This document shows positions 1-6,183 of a stretch of DNA of 55,541 bases, one piece after another; the first letter of the stretch is position 1, and every line of letters starts with the position of its first letter. Made by a program: the position numbers and the translations under genes. Origin of the DNA: Phycisphaerales bacterium (GTDB lineage Bacteria; Planctomycetota; Phycisphaerae; Tepidisphaerales; Tepidisphaeraceae); assembly GCA_020853095.1 (NCBI GenBank), contig JADYZN010000037.1, forward strand, positions 1 to 55,541, in the 5' to 3' direction. The notes below the pieces were generated by a model. That model was not told the origin of the DNA. It was given only the letters and a program-made list of their open reading frames with translations, and searched no databases.

Positions 1-496
1 CGGTGTTGATGTCGGAATCATCCGAAATGGCGTAGCTGCCGCTGTTGTTGAGCGTTGCGGCGTTTTGCAGGTACGGGCCGTAGCCATTGATGCCGGACTG
101 GGTGGTGTTGCCCTGCAGGTTGAGCGTTCGGCCATAGAGAGATAAGTAGCCATTATTGGCATTGACCGTGGCGTCACCCGTGACGGTGGTCGATCCGTTG
201 TCGCTCATGTTGCCGTAGGTCCAGTTGAGGGTGTTGGCGGTGAGGTTGAAGGTCCCATCGATCGCGCCGCCGGTGAGATTCAGCGTACCGATGCCGTAGG
301 AGGCGTCGAGCGTGACGGTGCCGCCGGTGATAAAGGCGTTTTCGCCTGTTGTGTCTGGCACGCCTGTGGGGGTCCAATGGGCCTGGTCACCCCAGATGTT
401 GGTGGTTCCATCCCAAATGTGGTCCTGTGCCCGTGTCATGCCGGACAGGGCGGCCGCGGCGGCCGCGGCCAAAATGAGCAGTGTTTTTCTGGACAT
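1..496 (-). CDS. Secreted beta-strand-repeat surface protein, N-terminal part
   Basis: The gene runs off the left edge, so only about 165 N-terminal residues are seen. The start ATG at 496 follows an AGGGAG ribosome site. A Sec signal peptide comes first (MSRKTLLIL, an alanine run, then a cut near TRAQ-D). Next is WDGTTNIWGDQAHW, the Trp-rich opening typical of autotransporter-like and PEP-CTERM beta-strand repeat proteins. The rest is low in charge and rich in Gly, Thr, Asn and Leu (ITGGTVTLD, LNLTGGAIDG), as expected of a parallel beta-helix. It is likely an exported surface or matrix protein; a PEP-CTERM tail is probable but lies outside the window. It is the last gene of a minus-strand run after a PEP-CTERM gene, and shares that gene's 103-bp upstream element. 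Confidence 0.75.
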   Translation of the reverse strand, partial: MSRKTLLILAAAAAAALSGMTRAQDHIWDGTTNIWGDQAHWTPTGVPDTTGENAFITGGTVTLDASYGIGTLNLTGGAIDGTFNLTANTLNWTYGNMSDNGSTTVTGDATVNANNGYLSLYGRTLNLQGNTTQSGINGYGPYLQNAATLNNSGSYAISDDSDINT

Positions 497-532
497 GATG
501 AAGACTCCCTCTTCCGGACTGTTGGCCTTGGC

Positions 533-635
533 GCCGGATACGCCTGATGGATGCTCCCGTCCGCCATGAAATTGGCGAAATAATGCGGGAACATGGCCAA
601 GAAACCCGCCGACCGGCGATTAACCGGACGGCGAG
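533..635 (-). repeat. 103-bp upstream element, copy A
   Basis: This is nearly identical to 1481-1583, with two differences in 103 positions by eye. It begins 10 bases after the stop of the PEP-CTERM gene and ends 37 bases before the start of the next gene. Read on the minus strand it holds a 9-7-9 inverted repeat with one central mismatch (positions 608-632, arms GCCGtCCGG and CCGGtCGGC), then a GG-N10-GC pair (GG at 598-597, GC at 586-585, context TTGGC...CGCAT) that fits the spacing of a sigma-54 -24/-12 promoter, then a CGCCA...TGGCG hairpin. The likely role is a promoter/leader unit driving exoprotein genes. That role is inferred; the repeat itself is directly visible. Confidence 0.75.
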
Positions 636-644
636 TAAATTTTC

Positions 645-1442
645 TCACCTTCGATTTCTCCGCCGGCGCAGCAACGACAGGCCGGCCATAGCCAGGACAC
701 AAAGCGTTCCCGGTTCGGGGACGGGGGTAAGTGAGAATTGGATGTCGAACCCAGCGCCGGCGTGAGGCGGAATCCACACCGCTCCGACGTAGCTCTGGTC
801 GGCCATCGCTGACAGTTCCAGGACGTAGCTACCCGGAGCGAGCGTTCCGCTGGTACTGATGGGCGTTGAAGGCACAACGGCTCCGAAGTCCTCAATGGAT
901 GGGGCGCCGCCGACCGGTGTCATCGTCAAGCCTGCGGCGGCATTGCCTCCAAATTGGTTGGCGAACACCATGGACAGATTGCCGGAGAGGGCGTAGGTGT
1001 AGGACTGGCCCGTGAGCGTGAAAACGAGCGTATAGGTGCTTTCAGAATGGGCGTTGAAAGTTTGCCCGTCATCTCCCTGTGCGGTTGCGCCCGCGGCTCC
1101 TGAGGCATCCAGTGACAGGCTGTTGACACCTTGAAAGACCGTGAAAGAGGCGTTTGATTGTGCGTTGGCGCCGGGCAGAAATGCGATGTTGGAAGGGCTT
1201 GGCGGCGCCCCATGACTGAAATTTGGATTCGGCACCAGTGGGTCGCCGCTGCTGGCACTGACCGTCGAAGGGCCTGTGCCGCTGTCGCCGTGGATGTCCG
1301 CATCTGGCATTGACATGGTCGGGCCGGCATCGGCCATTGTGCTTGATTCGCTGGAGTCCATAACAATTGCCGCGCGGGCCAGGCTCGCCCCGGCCGTCAC
1401 GACGACGGCGGCCAAACCGAGTTGTACGTTCCTGCGTAACAT
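645..1442 (-). CDS. PEP-CTERM sorting-domain exoprotein
   Basis: A 265-residue secreted protein. The start at 1442 is chosen because an AGAAGGAG ribosome site sits just upstream and a signal peptide follows at once (MLRRNVQLGLAAVVV, cut near ARA-A). An upstream in-frame ATG at 1598 would put non-signal sequence first. The C-terminus is a textbook PEP-CTERM tail: VPEPGT, a hydrophobic segment ending in AGLSLL, then RRRRNRR. In this family the tail is cut and the protein transferred to the surface by an exosortase (EpsH/XrtA type); no exosortase gene is in this window. The body is Ser/Thr/Gly-rich with no recognised catalytic domain. It lies between a 54-residue ORF and another surface protein gene, and carries copy B of the 103-bp element upstream. 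Confidence 0.85.
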   Translation of the reverse strand: MLRRNVQLGLAAVVVTAGASLARAAIVMDSSESSTMADAGPTMSMPDADIHGDSGTGPSTVSASSGDPLVPNPNFSHGAPPSPSNIAFLPGANAQSNASFTVFQGVNSLSLDASGAAGATAQGDDGQTFNAHSESTYTLVFTLTGQSYTYALSGNLSMVFANQFGGNAAAGLTMTPVGGAPSIEDFGAVVPSTPISTSGTLAPGSYVLELSAMADQSYVGAVWIPPHAGAGFDIQFSLTPVPEPGTLCVLAMAGLSLLRRRRNRR

Positions 1443-1480
1443 GACCAACTCCTTCTCTATCCAGACTCTGGGCCGCAGGT

Positions 1481-1583
1481 GCCGGATACGCCTGATGGAT
1501 GCTCCCGTCCGCCATGAAATTGGCGAAATAATGCGGGAACATGGCCGCGAAACCCGCCGACCGGCGATTAACCGGACGGCGAG
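1481..1583 (-). repeat. 103-bp upstream element, copy B
   Basis: Second copy of the element at 533-635. It begins 15 bases after the stop of the 54-residue ORF and ends 38 bases before the start of the PEP-CTERM gene, the same placement as copy A. The 9-7-9 inverted repeat is at 1556-1580. The GG-N10-GC pair on the minus strand has GG at 1546-1545 and GC at 1534-1533. The only differences from copy A are two bases next to the -24 half. Identity over a non-coding stretch, with unrelated coding sequence beyond it, argues for a duplicated regulatory cassette rather than simple tandem gene duplication. Confidence 0.75.
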
Positions 1584-1598
1584 GCATGGCATTGGCAA

Positions 1599-1763
1599 TC
1601 ATCGCCGCCGCCTTTTGCGGAAGGGCAGAAGATCGGTCCATCGCCAGCGACGGAACTGGGGTATCTCCCCGATCTCCAGCTCCGAAAGTGCGGATTCATT
1701 TGGTTTGTATTGTGTTTGTCGTATTTGAAATGACTTGTGGCTGTTTGTCCGCTTTGGTTTCAT
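1599..1763 (-). CDS. 54-residue basic small protein, unknown function
   Basis: A short ORF easily missed because of its size. It starts at ATG 1763, preceded by a strong AAGGAGGAGA ribosome site 10 bases upstream, and begins only 21 bases after the stop of the LuxR-type gene, so the two are probably co-transcribed. The peptide starts MKPKRTNSHKSFQIRQ, has an acidic middle (SELEIGEIPQF) and ends in LLPFRKRRRR. There is no signal peptide or membrane segment, and I recognise no family. The basic ends suggest nucleic-acid or membrane-surface binding, but that is a guess. The ribosome site and operon position are the main evidence that it is real. Confidence 0.5.
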   Translation of the reverse strand: MKPKRTNSHKSFQIRQTQYKPNESALSELEIGEIPQFRRWRWTDLLPFRKRRRR

Positions 1764-1784
1764 GTTGTTCTCTCCTCCTTCAAA

Positions 1785-2126
1785 TCATGTCGCGGGCGAT
1801 GGTTTGACGCCGCGCGGCGTCCGACTTTGCGGTTTGCCACCGGTCGACACATGGGCTGAGATGGGGCATTTTCCGGTGGTTTGCGGGTGTCGCAGCATCT
1901 GGGACAGCAGTTGCACCCGGCCGCGCACTCCAAAATGCTGGTAAATTTCCTGGACGTACTTGTGAACCGAGTTGAACGAGATGCCCAGCCTGGCGGCGAT
2001 TTCCCGTTGGGTCATGCCGCCGCGCAGCAGTTGCAGTGTGCGTGAGAGGTGGGTCGGCAGATGCGTGCCGCCCCCCCGCGAGGGCAAATCCTGATCGGGG
2101 CGGAAGCTGGAGAGTTGTTTCATCAT
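1785..2126 (-). CDS. LuxR-type HTH regulator, short form
   Basis: A small DNA-binding protein of about 113 residues made almost only of a LuxR/GerE helix-turn-helix: the core reads MTQREIAARLGISFNSVHKY, then VQEIYQHFGVRGRVQLL. An in-frame ATG at 2198 would add 24 residues whose codons are AT-rich and unlike the rest, so I prefer the Met pair at 2126-2121; neither start has a good ribosome site. No receiver or ligand domain is present. It is divergent from a longer LuxR-type gene with a similar HTH, and heads a minus-strand run with a 54-residue ORF and two surface proteins. It may control these neighbours; this is inferred from position. Confidence 0.75.
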   Translation of the reverse strand: MMKQLSSFRPDQDLPSRGGGTHLPTHLSRTLQLLRGGMTQREIAARLGISFNSVHKYVQEIYQHFGVRGRVQLLSQMLRHPQTTGKCPISAHVSTGGKPQSRTPRGVKPSPAT

Positions 2127-2472
2127 GGCGATCGAAATGAATGCAAAATGCACATGGTTTTCAAAAATCGAGCACGATGAATTGATAATTGCCCGCATCC
2201 GCCGCCGTGACAGCGATGACTTGATTCATGATTCCACATCCCGTTGACATCGCGGGACAAAATACGCTTTGCGTCTCTGTCCATTCAACCCCCCTAAAAT
2301 GAGGGATGTAACATCATGCGAACATCCAAACGACCGCATCAAGGATTACTTGATATTGAAGTGGATTGCCGATTTGATGTGATGATTCAGCCGAGGATAT
2401 TTTACACCACTCCGAAATTATGATACAAACTTGGCACGAGGCTCAAGTCCATAGCTACAAACGGGAGGAACA

Positions 2473-3318
2473 ATGGGACGGTCCAATCGATACACCGATG
2501 CCGAGGTGCGCGGGATGTTGCGTCTGGCCAGGGAATTGGCGGAGATGCCGAGCGATCGGGATGTTCGAACGACGCACATGCTTACGGGTTTGTGCGGGCT
2601 GGTGGGGGCCAAGGGGAGCAGCAGTTTTCTGGCCCGGCACGAAGTGGTTCAGCGTAAGCGGAAGGTGACGGTGCTGTCGGGTCAGTCGGAGGGATTGCAG
2701 GACAGGTCGGCCCAGGAGGCGATTCAGCAGTATTTGTCTACCATGGTGCCGACCGATCCGCTGGCCGAGCCGTTGTATAGTGCGCCGGGCCGGCAGGTGA
2801 CGATGGGGCGTGAGCAGATCATGGATCGCCCCCAATGGCATTATTCGGAGCATTTTAATGAGGTGCGTTGCGCGATCGGCATCGACGACTGCATCGCCAC
2901 GAAGATCGTGCTGGGGTCGGGTCTTCATGTGATGACGGTGTGTGTGCATCGGGCGCCGGGGGAACGGCCTTTTACGCGGCGGCAGTGGGAGATATTGGAC
3001 CTGTTTCACAGCGAAATGTACCGGCTGTTGGATGTGAGGTCGGCCAAGCCGATGATGGCGCTATCGCCGCGGATGAGGCAGGTGCTGGAGTGCATGCAGA
3101 GGGGGGACGGGCCAAAGCAAATTGCGATCAAGCTGGGTTTAAGTGTTTATACGGTGCGGGATTATGTCAAAAAGCTGTATGAACGGTTTAATGTGAGCGG
3201 GCAGAGGGAATTGCTGGGGTGTTTTGTGCGGCAGCCGGGAGAAGCGGTTGCGGAGGATCAGGCTCAGGCCGGGGAAGAGGTGCCATCTGGCCCGGCGACG
3301 ACAGAGGCCCTACAATAA
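2473..3318 (+). CDS. LuxR-type transcriptional regulator
   Basis: A 281-residue regulator with a GGGAGGA ribosome site just before ATG 2473. The N-terminal two thirds (about residues 1-185) have a GAF-like feel (HYSEHFNEVRCAIGIDD, VLGSGLHVMTVCVHR) but no clear signature. The C-terminus is a LuxR/GerE HTH: LSPRMRQVLECMQRGDGPKQ, then KLGLSVYTVRDYVKKLYERF. It resembles the short LuxR-type gene on the other side of the 346-bp divergent intergenic region, so the two may be relatives reading related sites. The bactofilin-like gene starts 5 bases after its stop, suggesting co-transcription. The signal it senses is unknown. Confidence 0.85.
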   Translation: MGRSNRYTDAEVRGMLRLARELAEMPSDRDVRTTHMLTGLCGLVGAKGSSSFLARHEVVQRKRKVTVLSGQSEGLQDRSAQEAIQQYLSTMVPTDPLAEPLYSAPGRQVTMGREQIMDRPQWHYSEHFNEVRCAIGIDDCIATKIVLGSGLHVMTVCVHRAPGERPFTRRQWEILDLFHSEMYRLLDVRSAKPMMALSPRMRQVLECMQRGDGPKQIAIKLGLSVYTVRDYVKKLYERFNVSGQRELLGCFVRQPGEAVAEDQAQAGEEVPSGPATTEALQ

Positions 3319-3323
3319 TCTCC

Positions 3324-3758
3324 ATGCGGGAAGAACGTGGACAGATCAAAGGGGATGTGGTGGTCTATGAAGCGTTCACGCTTTGGGGATCGGTGGCCGG
3401 CGACGTGAAGGTCATCAAGGGGGGCAAGATGTATCTGCGAGGGGCGATATACGGCAACCTGACGGTCGAGCCGGGGGGGCGGGTGCATATCCTGGGGAAC
3501 GTATCGGGAGACCTGATTGTATCGCCCAAGTCCAAAGTGATTCATTCGGGGATCATCGGCGGCGATGCGATCAACGAAGGGGGCCGGCTTTACATCGATG
3601 CCACGGCTCGCATCCTGGGCAAGACCCGAACCTATTCGGGAGACACCGAGGTCAAAAAACAGGTGGCATTCGGCGACCCCATCCCCGATGATGATGCCCG
3701 CCGGAAAATGTGGCGGATTGACGATGACATCGATCATCGCAAACGGCTGCAAAAATAA
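3324..3758 (+). CDS. Bactofilin-like polymer-forming protein
   Basis: A 144-residue protein with the repeating Gly-hydrophobic pattern of bactofilins (DUF583, right-handed beta-helix filament formers): IKGDVVVYEAFTLWGSVAGD, LRGAIYGNLTVEPGGRVHIL, GNVSGDLIVSPKSKVIHSG. Bactofilins assemble without nucleotides into cytoskeletal filaments or scaffolds near the membrane. The ATG at 3324 is the first sensible start, because upstream in-frame sequence overlaps the LuxR-type gene and reads as a shadow; it has no strong ribosome site. The charged tail (DDDARRKMWRIDDDIDHRK) lies outside the helix. It likely shares a transcript with the upstream regulator. Confidence 0.8.
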   Translation: MREERGQIKGDVVVYEAFTLWGSVAGDVKVIKGGKMYLRGAIYGNLTVEPGGRVHILGNVSGDLIVSPKSKVIHSGIIGGDAINEGGRLYIDATARILGKTRTYSGDTEVKKQVAFGDPIPDDDARRKMWRIDDDIDHRKRLQK

Positions 3759-3867: not shown

Positions 3868-6183
3868 ATGAACACGCAGGATCAAGACGGCCAATGCGCG
3901 GTTGTTGATGCGACAAACATTGTTCCCGCCAAGCTCGATTACAGCCTGACCGGCGAAAATGCCGCGCGCGCCATCGAACGCGGGCTGGCCGAGGCGGATT
4001 GGTATCAATGCCCGATCCCGCGACAGGAGATGCGACAACTGCTGGTTAGGCGGAATGGTCCGGCCATTCGGGACACGATCCTGTGGTTCGCATTGATTTT
4101 CGGTTCGGCATACGCCACTTATGCGCTGTGGGGTTCATGGTGGGCGGCCATTCCCTATCTGATCTACGCGGTGTTGTACGCTTCCACATCCGACTCTCGC
4201 TGGCATGAAACCAGTCACGGCACGGCGTTCAAAACCGACTGGATGAACAACGTGCTGTACGAAATCGCCTCCTTCATGGTGATGCGAGAATCGACCGTGT
4301 GGCGATGGAGCCATACGCGACACCACAGTGACACGATCATCGTCGGACGCGACCCGGAGATCTCCGTGCCGCGGCCGCCCGATATCCGCAAGATGGTGTT
4401 GAAGTTCGTCGGCCTGCCCCTGTACTGGCCCTATTTCTCCTCGATCGTCCGTCATTCGCTGGGCGGGATGACCGGTGCGGAGAAGACGTTCATTCCTCCG
4501 GAAGAATTCGGCAAGATTCACTTTCGCGCCCGGATTTATCTGCTGATTTACGCGGCGGTCATCGCACTGGCGGTTTATACGAGAAGCATTCTGCCTTTGA
4601 TGTTCATCGGGTTGCCGCACATTTTTGGAACCTGGTTGATGCTGCTCTACGGCTGGACGCAGCACGCCGGCCTGGCCGAGAACGTGCTGGATCACCGGCT
4701 GAACTGTCGAACCGTCTACATGTGCTGGGTTCATCGTTATCTGTATTGGAACATGAACTACCACGTTGAACACCACATGTTCCCGTTGGTTCCCTACCAT
4801 GCGCTGCCGAGATTGCACGCGGCGGTCAAGGATGACATGCCCGTGCCGTATCCGTCTTTGCTGGCCGCATGGAAGGAGATCGTGCCGTCGGTTCTTCGAC
4901 AGGTGAAAGACCCCGCGTATTACGTCAAACGCCGGCTTCCGGAGTCCAAGGCCCAGCGGCCGGCCGGGAACAATGGCCCCTCGGAGGTGAAACCGGACGC
5001 CGAAGGATGGCTCGAAATCTGCGCGGCCGCGGACCTGAACCGGCAGGATGTGATCCGATTCGATCACGGCCGCAAGACGTTCGCCCTGTATCGCGACGAA
5101 ACCGGCAATCTTTATGCCACCGATGGCATCTGCACGCATGCCAACACGCACCTGGCCGATGGGCTGGTGAAAGGGACCCAGATCGAATGCCCGAAACACA
5201 ACGGCCGGTTCAACCTCGCGGATGGATCGCCCGCCAGGCCGCCAATCTGCCGGGCGATCGTAACCTACCCGATTGAAGAACGCGCCGGCCGGTTGTGGTT
5301 GAACGTCGTGCGGGCCGGCGGGGCCGGCGCCCGCGAACAAAAAACCTTCACGTTTCGCGTGGTCAGCAATCGCAGCGTCGCGACGTTCATCAAGGAGCTT
5401 GTCCTCGAACCGGCCGATTCCGACCAATCCATCGAATTCACGCCCGGCGATTACCTTCAGTTCGACATCCCCGCCTATGAGCAGATCCGTTTTCGTGATT
5501 TTGACATTCCCGAACCGTACGCATCGGTCTGGGAACGCCAGCACGTCTTTGATCTGGTCGCTCAAAACCCCTGCGGTTCCAATCGACGCAACAACTACTC
5601 GCTGGCATCAAACCCCGACACCGAACGTTCATCGTTGCGTTTCAACGTGCGGATCGCCACGCCGCCGCCGGGGCAGGATTGCCCTCCGGGTGTCGGATCG
5701 GCGTACGTGTTCAATCTGAAACCGGGAGACCAGGTGACCGCCATCGGGCCGTTCGGTGATTTCCATATCATGCCGACGCAGCGAGAGATGGTCTATGTCG
5801 GCGGCGGCGCGGGGATGGCGCCATTGCGCAGCCATCTTTCACAACTGTTCGGCGCCGAACCAACGCAACGCAAAGTCAGCTTCTGGTATGGCGCCCGTTC
5901 GCGGCAGGAGATTTTTTACGCCGATTATTTTGAAGCGATGGCGGCAAAGCATTCCAACTTCACGTTTAACCTGGCGTTGTCATCGCCGCTGCCGGATGAC
6001 AATTGGTCGGGGCATACCGGGTTGATTCACGATGTGCTACTTCGGAAACATCTGAGCAACCATCCCAGCCCCGAGTCCGTTGAATATTATCTGTGCGGGC
6101 CGCCCATGATGATCAAGGCGTGCACCAAAATGCTCGCGGAGCTGAACGTGCCCATTTCGCGCATTGCTTATGATGAATTCTGA
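3868..6183 (+). CDS. Desaturase-Rieske-NqrF-type reductase triple fusion
   Basis: A 771-residue chain with three redox modules. Residues about 65-350 are a membrane di-iron fatty acid desaturase/hydroxylase with its three histidine boxes, HETSHG (113-118), HTRHH (149-153) and HVEHH (299-303), and several membrane spans. Residues about 380-485 are a Rieske [2Fe-2S] domain with Cys422-x-His424 and Cys441-x2-His444 (CTHANTHL, CPKHNGRF). Residues about 493-771 are an FAD/NAD reductase like the C-terminal part of NqrF: RNNYSLAS, GGGAGMAPLRS and YYLCGPPMM. Electrons would flow NADH, FAD, Rieske, di-iron site within one protein. The order matches separate mocD/mocE/mocF genes known from rhizopine breakdown. 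The substrate is unknown: a lipid, alkane or small amine ether are all possible. It converges on the next gene with no spacer. Confidence 0.9.
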   Translation: MNTQDQDGQCAVVDATNIVPAKLDYSLTGENAARAIERGLAEADWYQCPIPRQEMRQLLVRRNGPAIRDTILWFALIFGSAYATYALWGSWWAAIPYLIYAVLYASTSDSRWHETSHGTAFKTDWMNNVLYEIASFMVMRESTVWRWSHTRHHSDTIIVGRDPEISVPRPPDIRKMVLKFVGLPLYWPYFSSIVRHSLGGMTGAEKTFIPPEEFGKIHFRARIYLLIYAAVIALAVYTRSILPLMFIGLPHIFGTWLMLLYGWTQHAGLAENVLDHRLNCRTVYMCWVHRYLYWNMNYHVEHHMFPLVPYHALPRLHAAVKDDMPVPYPSLLAAWKEIVPSVLRQVKDPAYYVKRRLPESKAQRPAGNNGPSEVKPDAEGWLEICAAADLNRQDVIRFDHGRKTFALYRDETGNLYATDGICTHANTHLADGLVKGTQIECPKHNGRFNLADGSPARPPICRAIVTYPIEERAGRLWLNVVRAGGAGAREQKTFTFRVVSNRSVATFIKELVLEPADSDQSIEFTPGDYLQFDIPAYEQIRFRDFDIPEPYASVWERQHVFDLVAQNPCGSNRRNNYSLASNPDTERSSLRFNVRIATPPPGQDCPPGVGSAYVFNLKPGDQVTAIGPFGDFHIMPTQREMVYVGGGAGMAPLRSHLSQLFGAEPTQRKVSFWYGARSRQEIFYADYFEAMAAKHSNFTFNLALSSPLPDDNWSGHTGLIHDVLLRKHLSNHPSPESVEYYLCGPPMMIKACTKMLAELNVPISRIAYDEF

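Follow-up and report, generated by a model that had tools for sequence, protein, structure and literature searches.

Shared junction sequences in a small tandem array of PEP-CTERM genes from a Phycisphaerales bacterium and their probable upkeep by recombination

Genes at the locus and the repeat at their junctions

The window analysed here is contig C37 (55,541 nt) of a Phycisphaerales bacterium with a genome of 3.6 Mb. At its start lie two neighbouring minus-strand genes for proteins with signal peptides. Gene 2 (645-1442, minus strand) encodes a PEP-CTERM protein of 265 amino acids, which comprises a signal peptide, a body of unknown family and a PEP-CTERM tail matched by TIGR02595 over the cut-off at 654-722 and by PF07589 with an E-value of 0.00078, just below the cut-off. 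Gene 1 is represented by its 5' part (1-496, minus strand) with the signal peptide and the start of the body, while the remainder probably lies on contig C48. Joining C48 and C37 over an in-frame overlap of 9 bp gives a frame for a 374-aa protein with signal peptide and PEP-CTERM tail. The contig order is supported by synteny with the sister species G001, since on its contig C125 the orthologs of the C48 genes run directly into the ortholog of the bactofilin gene at 3307-3758 of the window. The PEP-CTERM gene on C48 ends outside the window, and its 3' end most likely belongs to gene 1 itself.

Upstream of gene 2 we find a 54-aa ORF (1599-1763, minus strand) with a strong Shine-Dalgarno sequence, no Pfam family and an arginine-rich C-terminus. 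This is followed by the gene for a small protein with a LuxR-type HTH (1785-2198, minus strand; PF00196, E = 7.9e-8) and that for a LuxR-type regulator (2473-3318, plus strand; PF00196, E = 1.7e-10). Gene 1, gene 2, the 54-aa ORF and both LuxR-type genes belong to a stretch of about 4.07 kb (window 1-3306 plus C48 2618-3393, L055) that is missing at an intact site on C125 of G001, the only same-genus genome for comparison, and synteny places the second LuxR-type gene at the far edge of this stretch. The ends of the stretch bear the near-repeat CA(C/G)AGGCCCT. The last codons of the LuxR-type gene at the edge (ALQ, stop) are the same as those of a membrane-protein gene in G001. In the outgroup G006, examined for insertion versus deletion of the stretch, no bactofilin gene adjoins FlgM. 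Further along the window, a single ORF (3868-6183, plus strand) looks by sequence like a fusion of a fatty-acid desaturase with Rieske and ferredoxin-reductase-like parts; among 20 relatives searched, close relatives of it occur in G001 and G008 only.

Upstream of genes 1 and 2, respectively, lie two direct repeats of 106 bp each (530-635 and 1478-1583, minus strand) that are 97% identical. An earlier note had described this pair as 103 bp with about two differences; the likeness is real and far beyond chance (E = 1e-45 in the own genome), and the copies differ at three sites, with TT/GC at positions 36-37 of the element and G/A at position 104. From the ends of the copies to their start codons there are 33 and 35 nt, so that the distance from the start is the same within 2 nt, as had been proposed. 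A weaker likeness continues via the 5'UTR into the signal-peptide codons (451-635 versus 1391-1583, 82%). Within this match, the signal-peptide codons of gene 1 (451-496, minus strand) are weakly similar to those of gene 2 (1391-1442), with 61% identity over the first 66 nt.

The repeat had been taken for a promoter/leader cassette, which holds for most of its length but not for its upstream edge. Over its first ~31 nt the repeat folds into a strong hairpin of about -22 kcal/mol, and the remaining ~71 nt, together with 33-35 nt of less conserved sequence, make up the leader of the next gene. In copy 1, the hairpin (601-635, minus strand; -22.2 kcal/mol) lies ~10 nt past the stop codon of gene 2, and element positions 36-106 (530-600, minus strand) form the promoter/5'UTR part that ends 33 nt before the ATG of gene 1 at 496. 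In copy 2, the same hairpin (1549-1583, minus strand) lies ~15 nt past the stop of the 54-aa ORF and the leader part (element positions 36-106; 1478-1548, minus strand) stops 35 nt short of the ATG of gene 2 at 1442. The 106-bp repeat is therefore the 3' hairpin of the preceding gene plus the leader of the next PEP-CTERM gene, rather than a pure promoter cassette.

The likeness between the two genes is not confined to their leaders. The PEP-CTERM tail, stop codon and hairpin of gene 2 (594-724, minus strand) are 92.4% identical over 131 bp to C48:2706-2835, i.e. to the 3' end assigned to gene 1. Comparison of the two bodies gives likeness at the level of low-complexity noise only. The view that the two genes share no obvious sequence thus describes their bodies and misses their ends, which are alike both in the leader (97% over 106 bp) and in the tail with stop and hairpin (92% over 131 bp). 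A search for homologs of gene 2 in 100 relatives returned one weak match, in G045. AlphaFold models computed from single sequences for gene 2 and the gene 1 fragment have a mean pLDDT of 40-43 and were left out of the evidence.

As the window begins at a contig end within gene 1 and the overlap of C48 with C37 is 9 bp only, the repeat could in principle reflect misassembly at the contig end. We consider such an artefact very improbable. Within a single contig the two copies are set apart by three differences and by their unique flanks, the contig order is backed by the sister-species synteny, and the same pattern is seen again inside C32 and C54 as well as in other genomes.

Copy number, promoter motifs and folding of the repeat

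Full copies of the element are limited to the two adjacent ones in this genome, and next in rank is a match of 34 bp on C48. Searches of 100 relatives and of plasmids, phages, GTDB genome contigs and viral contigs gave no copy. The relatives contain short partial matches (e.g. L020, L024), and the pieces inspected look coding or due to chance. The many dispersed copies expected of a mobile (MITE/REP-like) repeat are thus absent from these collections, and the proposal of a mobile 106-bp element is not borne out.

Nor is there support for the regulon of exoproteins that the earlier note had suggested. The genome contains 87 TIGR02595 matches over the cut-off, and of about 88 PEP-CTERM genes 2 have the element in front of them. 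Likeness between leaders is nearly limited to neighbours: 15 of 3741 leader pairs are similar and 12 of these 15 are adjacent, compared to 22 adjacent pairs among the 3741 in all. The window pair comes in addition to these 15, since the start and the tail of gene 1 are on different contigs. End-sharing is not strictly limited to neighbours, as the non-adjacent PEP-CTERM genes C3:22123 and C52:16170 have leaders with 83.5% identity over 158 nt and signal peptides that are alike, with largely different bodies.

In the note's own reading, exoproteins are brought into one regulon by a mobile or gene-converted regulatory cassette that bears a sigma-54 promoter. The GG-N10-GC (-24/-12) pair on which it draws is present within the element and matches 6 of 12 specified sigma-54 positions. 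RpoN is encoded in the genome (TIGR02395, 390 bits, over the cut-off), and in some Proteobacteria PEP-CTERM genes depend on RpoN (PMC9850573; PMC1569441). However, -24/-12 sites are not enriched in 85 PEP-CTERM leaders (27 observed versus 31.5 in shuffles, at ≥6 matches), where sigma-70-like promoter pairs are enriched instead (9 versus 1.8 expected, at 10/12 matches). No protein reaches the cut-off for PrsR, the best match to TIGR02915 scoring 380.8 bits against 502.6, and the published sigma-54 site of PEP-CTERM genes was found in Proteobacteria only (PMC1569441). Together with the presence of two full copies only, these data make a sigma-54 cassette very improbable.

We then consider the folding of the element. 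The inverted repeat, described as 9-7-9, is present as a stem of 7+5 bp with an internal mismatch and a loop of 5. A related hairpin follows the PEP-CTERM gene on C48, in which a G-C pair replaces the T-T mismatch, and hairpins past the stop codon are common in this genome (42 of 87 PEP-CTERM genes with z below -2). The upstream-edge hairpin is therefore best read as the 3' end of the preceding gene. It probably acts as a terminator, judging from its stability and its position shortly past the stop of gene 2, as in intrinsic terminators. The U-tract after the hairpin is weak (GTTTC), and a terminator scan reports 606-627 as a site, with 3 sites found versus 1.6 expected.

Alternatively, the element could be a structured, cis-regulatory leader RNA selected before both genes. 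Both leaders fold well, with z values of -3.1 and -5.6 when the 3' hairpin is included, and the leaders of the C32 array and its G001 counterpart have a common invariant GAGGCG...CGCCU stem and a variable hairpin. Yet the window element owes most of its folding energy to the preceding gene's 3' hairpin, and the leaders of the 87 PEP-CTERM genes overall are not unusually folded. An Rfam search of the region gives a chance snoRNA match alone (16 bits versus a gathering score of 90). The check for RNA covariation that had been proposed yields nothing from two copies at 97% identity and a term near zero (-0.12) for the C32 set. We thus regard a selected leader RNA as an improbable origin of the window repeat.

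In the C32 and G001 leaders themselves (L086 1879-5433, L153) the invariant stem lies just upstream of the Shine-Dalgarno sequence, and it is the second hairpin that varies in sequence. These leaders are a possible leader RNA, for which the covariation is too weak to support a claim.

Arrays with alike ends and different bodies

The arrangement of near-identical ends around a different body recurs, with array-specific sequence, in this genome (arrays C32 and C54) and in two further genomes of the class. Array C32 comprises five PEP-CTERM genes whose leaders are 75-91% identical and whose signal peptides, tails and 3' hairpins are mostly alike, while the bodies are without credible similarity; its junction sequence differs from that of the window. 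The members of the C54 pair agree at 158 of the 160 nt upstream of the ATG and are 97% identical over the last ~120 nt, with a body of 48% protein identity in between. In genomes from other families of the class, array C79 of G035 has a leader identity of 0.94 and a tail identity of 0.91 with unrelated bodies, and array C65 of G029 shows the same arrangement. Pfam searches leave most array bodies without a domain.

For array C32 the sister species G001 has an orthologous array, which allows orthologs and paralogs to be compared. The first gene, C32g1, is orthologous to G1g2 in its body (75% DNA identity), tail (73%) and 3' flank (83%), while the leaders of the two are ~50% identical, where identities for related pairs come from alignment with penalised ends or from counts of ungapped columns. 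The leaders of G1g1 and G1g2 have a common insertion and form a clade with 100/99 support. A leader tree with a clade of C32g1 and G1g2 is rejected (p-AU 3.4e-7), based on 8 short sequences with an alignment uncertain in parts and on a pair picked by body orthology, yet after the leader identities had been seen. The bodies of the C32 neighbours are not common to the two species. Since the ortholog leader clade is rejected and the neighbours' bodies differ between the species, the leaders have recombined relative to the bodies. Within-genome paralogs are here more alike than between-species orthologs, as in concerted evolution. This decisive comparison comes from array C32 only, because the window stretch is missing in G001.

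The most favoured account is that recombination, either gene conversion or unequal exchange, homogenises the ends of array genes while the bodies diverge or are exchanged, and that the window pair is the shared junction of a small tandem PEP-CTERM array. We hold this to be probable, because the arrangement recurs in several arrays and the G1g2 leader of the sister species groups with that of its array neighbour rather than with that of its ortholog. An array unit would run from leader and signal peptide through the body to the PEP-CTERM tail with its 3' hairpin. Homologous recombination between neighbouring units, as gene conversion or as unequal crossing over, would exchange sequence between their ends and keep these alike, whereas the bodies would be too dissimilar to pair and would diverge, be replaced or be lost. 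The likely outcome would be neighbouring surface proteins with common expression and sorting signals and different bodies, and the window genes would be co-expressed. For the window pair itself, the note's term 'gene-converted' gains support by analogy, from the sister-species test at C32, the C54 pair and the other arrays, which suggest the same origin for this pair.

The main rival remains ordinary tandem duplication followed by very fast divergence of the bodies or diversifying selection, in which purifying selection would preserve promoter, signal peptide, tail and terminator without any gene conversion. This would fit with the C54 bodies, which are still homologous (48% protein identity) and both have HpiC1-like domains, and with the borders of high identity, which coincide with functional borders, sharply so at the start codon. 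Purifying selection on the leader, however, predicts the opposite of what is seen at C32, where ortholog leaders are ~50% identical next to ortholog bodies at 75%, and non-homologous neighbours have leaders at 75-91%. The window bodies are also without credible similarity. We therefore consider duplication with selection on the ends unlikely as the whole explanation. Selection on common regulatory ends with fast divergence of the bodies could nevertheless give part of the pattern, and two observations speak against homogenisation by recombination, as the adjacent PEP-CTERM sets C3, C43 and C46 have no common leader and the hairpins are without a strong U-tract.

Relation to known systems and possible meaning

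In layout the array resembles the emm/mrp/enn genes of Group A Streptococcus, adjacent surface-protein genes with alike signal peptides and cell-wall sorting ends, unalignable middles and recombination chimeras (PMC6952200). Common secretion and anchor ends with variable middles are found here as well. The anchor there is of the sortase/LPXTG type, while both window proteins end in a PEP-CTERM signal for the exosortase system, and the window array is therefore not a member of that family. In addition, the non-coding leader and the 3' hairpin are also common here, and the bodies appear non-homologous.

The PrsK/PrsR sigma-54 regulon (Haft et al. 2006) resembles the locus in that PEP-CTERM genes have non-coding leaders, and the element contains a GG-N10-GC pair. 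In that regulon the site is genome-wide in Proteobacteria, whereas the present leader is specific to its array, the motif shows no enrichment and no protein passes the PrsR cut-off.

The arrays resemble tandem paralogs under concerted evolution in that, over tracts, likeness is greater among the paralogs of one genome than between the orthologs of two species. Concerted evolution by gene conversion usually concerns whole genes or coding parts; here homogenisation affects the ends, non-coding leader and 3' hairpin included, and spares the coding middle. Typical integron cassettes are unlike the units described here, which bring their own leader and signal peptide. A limited literature search found no paper joining 'PEP-CTERM' and 'gene conversion', and novelty is for this reason provisional.

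PEP-CTERM proteins are numerous in this group (the 87 matches noted above in a 3.6-Mb genome), and most of the array bodies tested are without known domain. If the proposed upkeep of the ends is true, recombination-kept ends together with body turnover would provide a route by which PEP-CTERM proteins could grow in number and variety while drawing on ready-made signals for expression and sorting. Going one step further, PEP-CTERM arrays in the class may, tentatively, be regarded as a body-exchange system, in which the conserved ends would serve as standing recombination substrates for capturing, swapping and deleting bodies and would allow fast turnover of the exoproteome. For the reading of such loci in general, near-identical upstream regions of adjacent genes do not necessarily imply a regulon.

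A minor observation concerns the second gene of array C32. C32g2 (L086 3046-3324) is a PEP-CTERM gene of 92 amino acids with little beyond signal peptide and tail. As its tail matches that of a gene with a 313-aa frame in the sister species (L153), C32g2 may be a body-deletion remnant.
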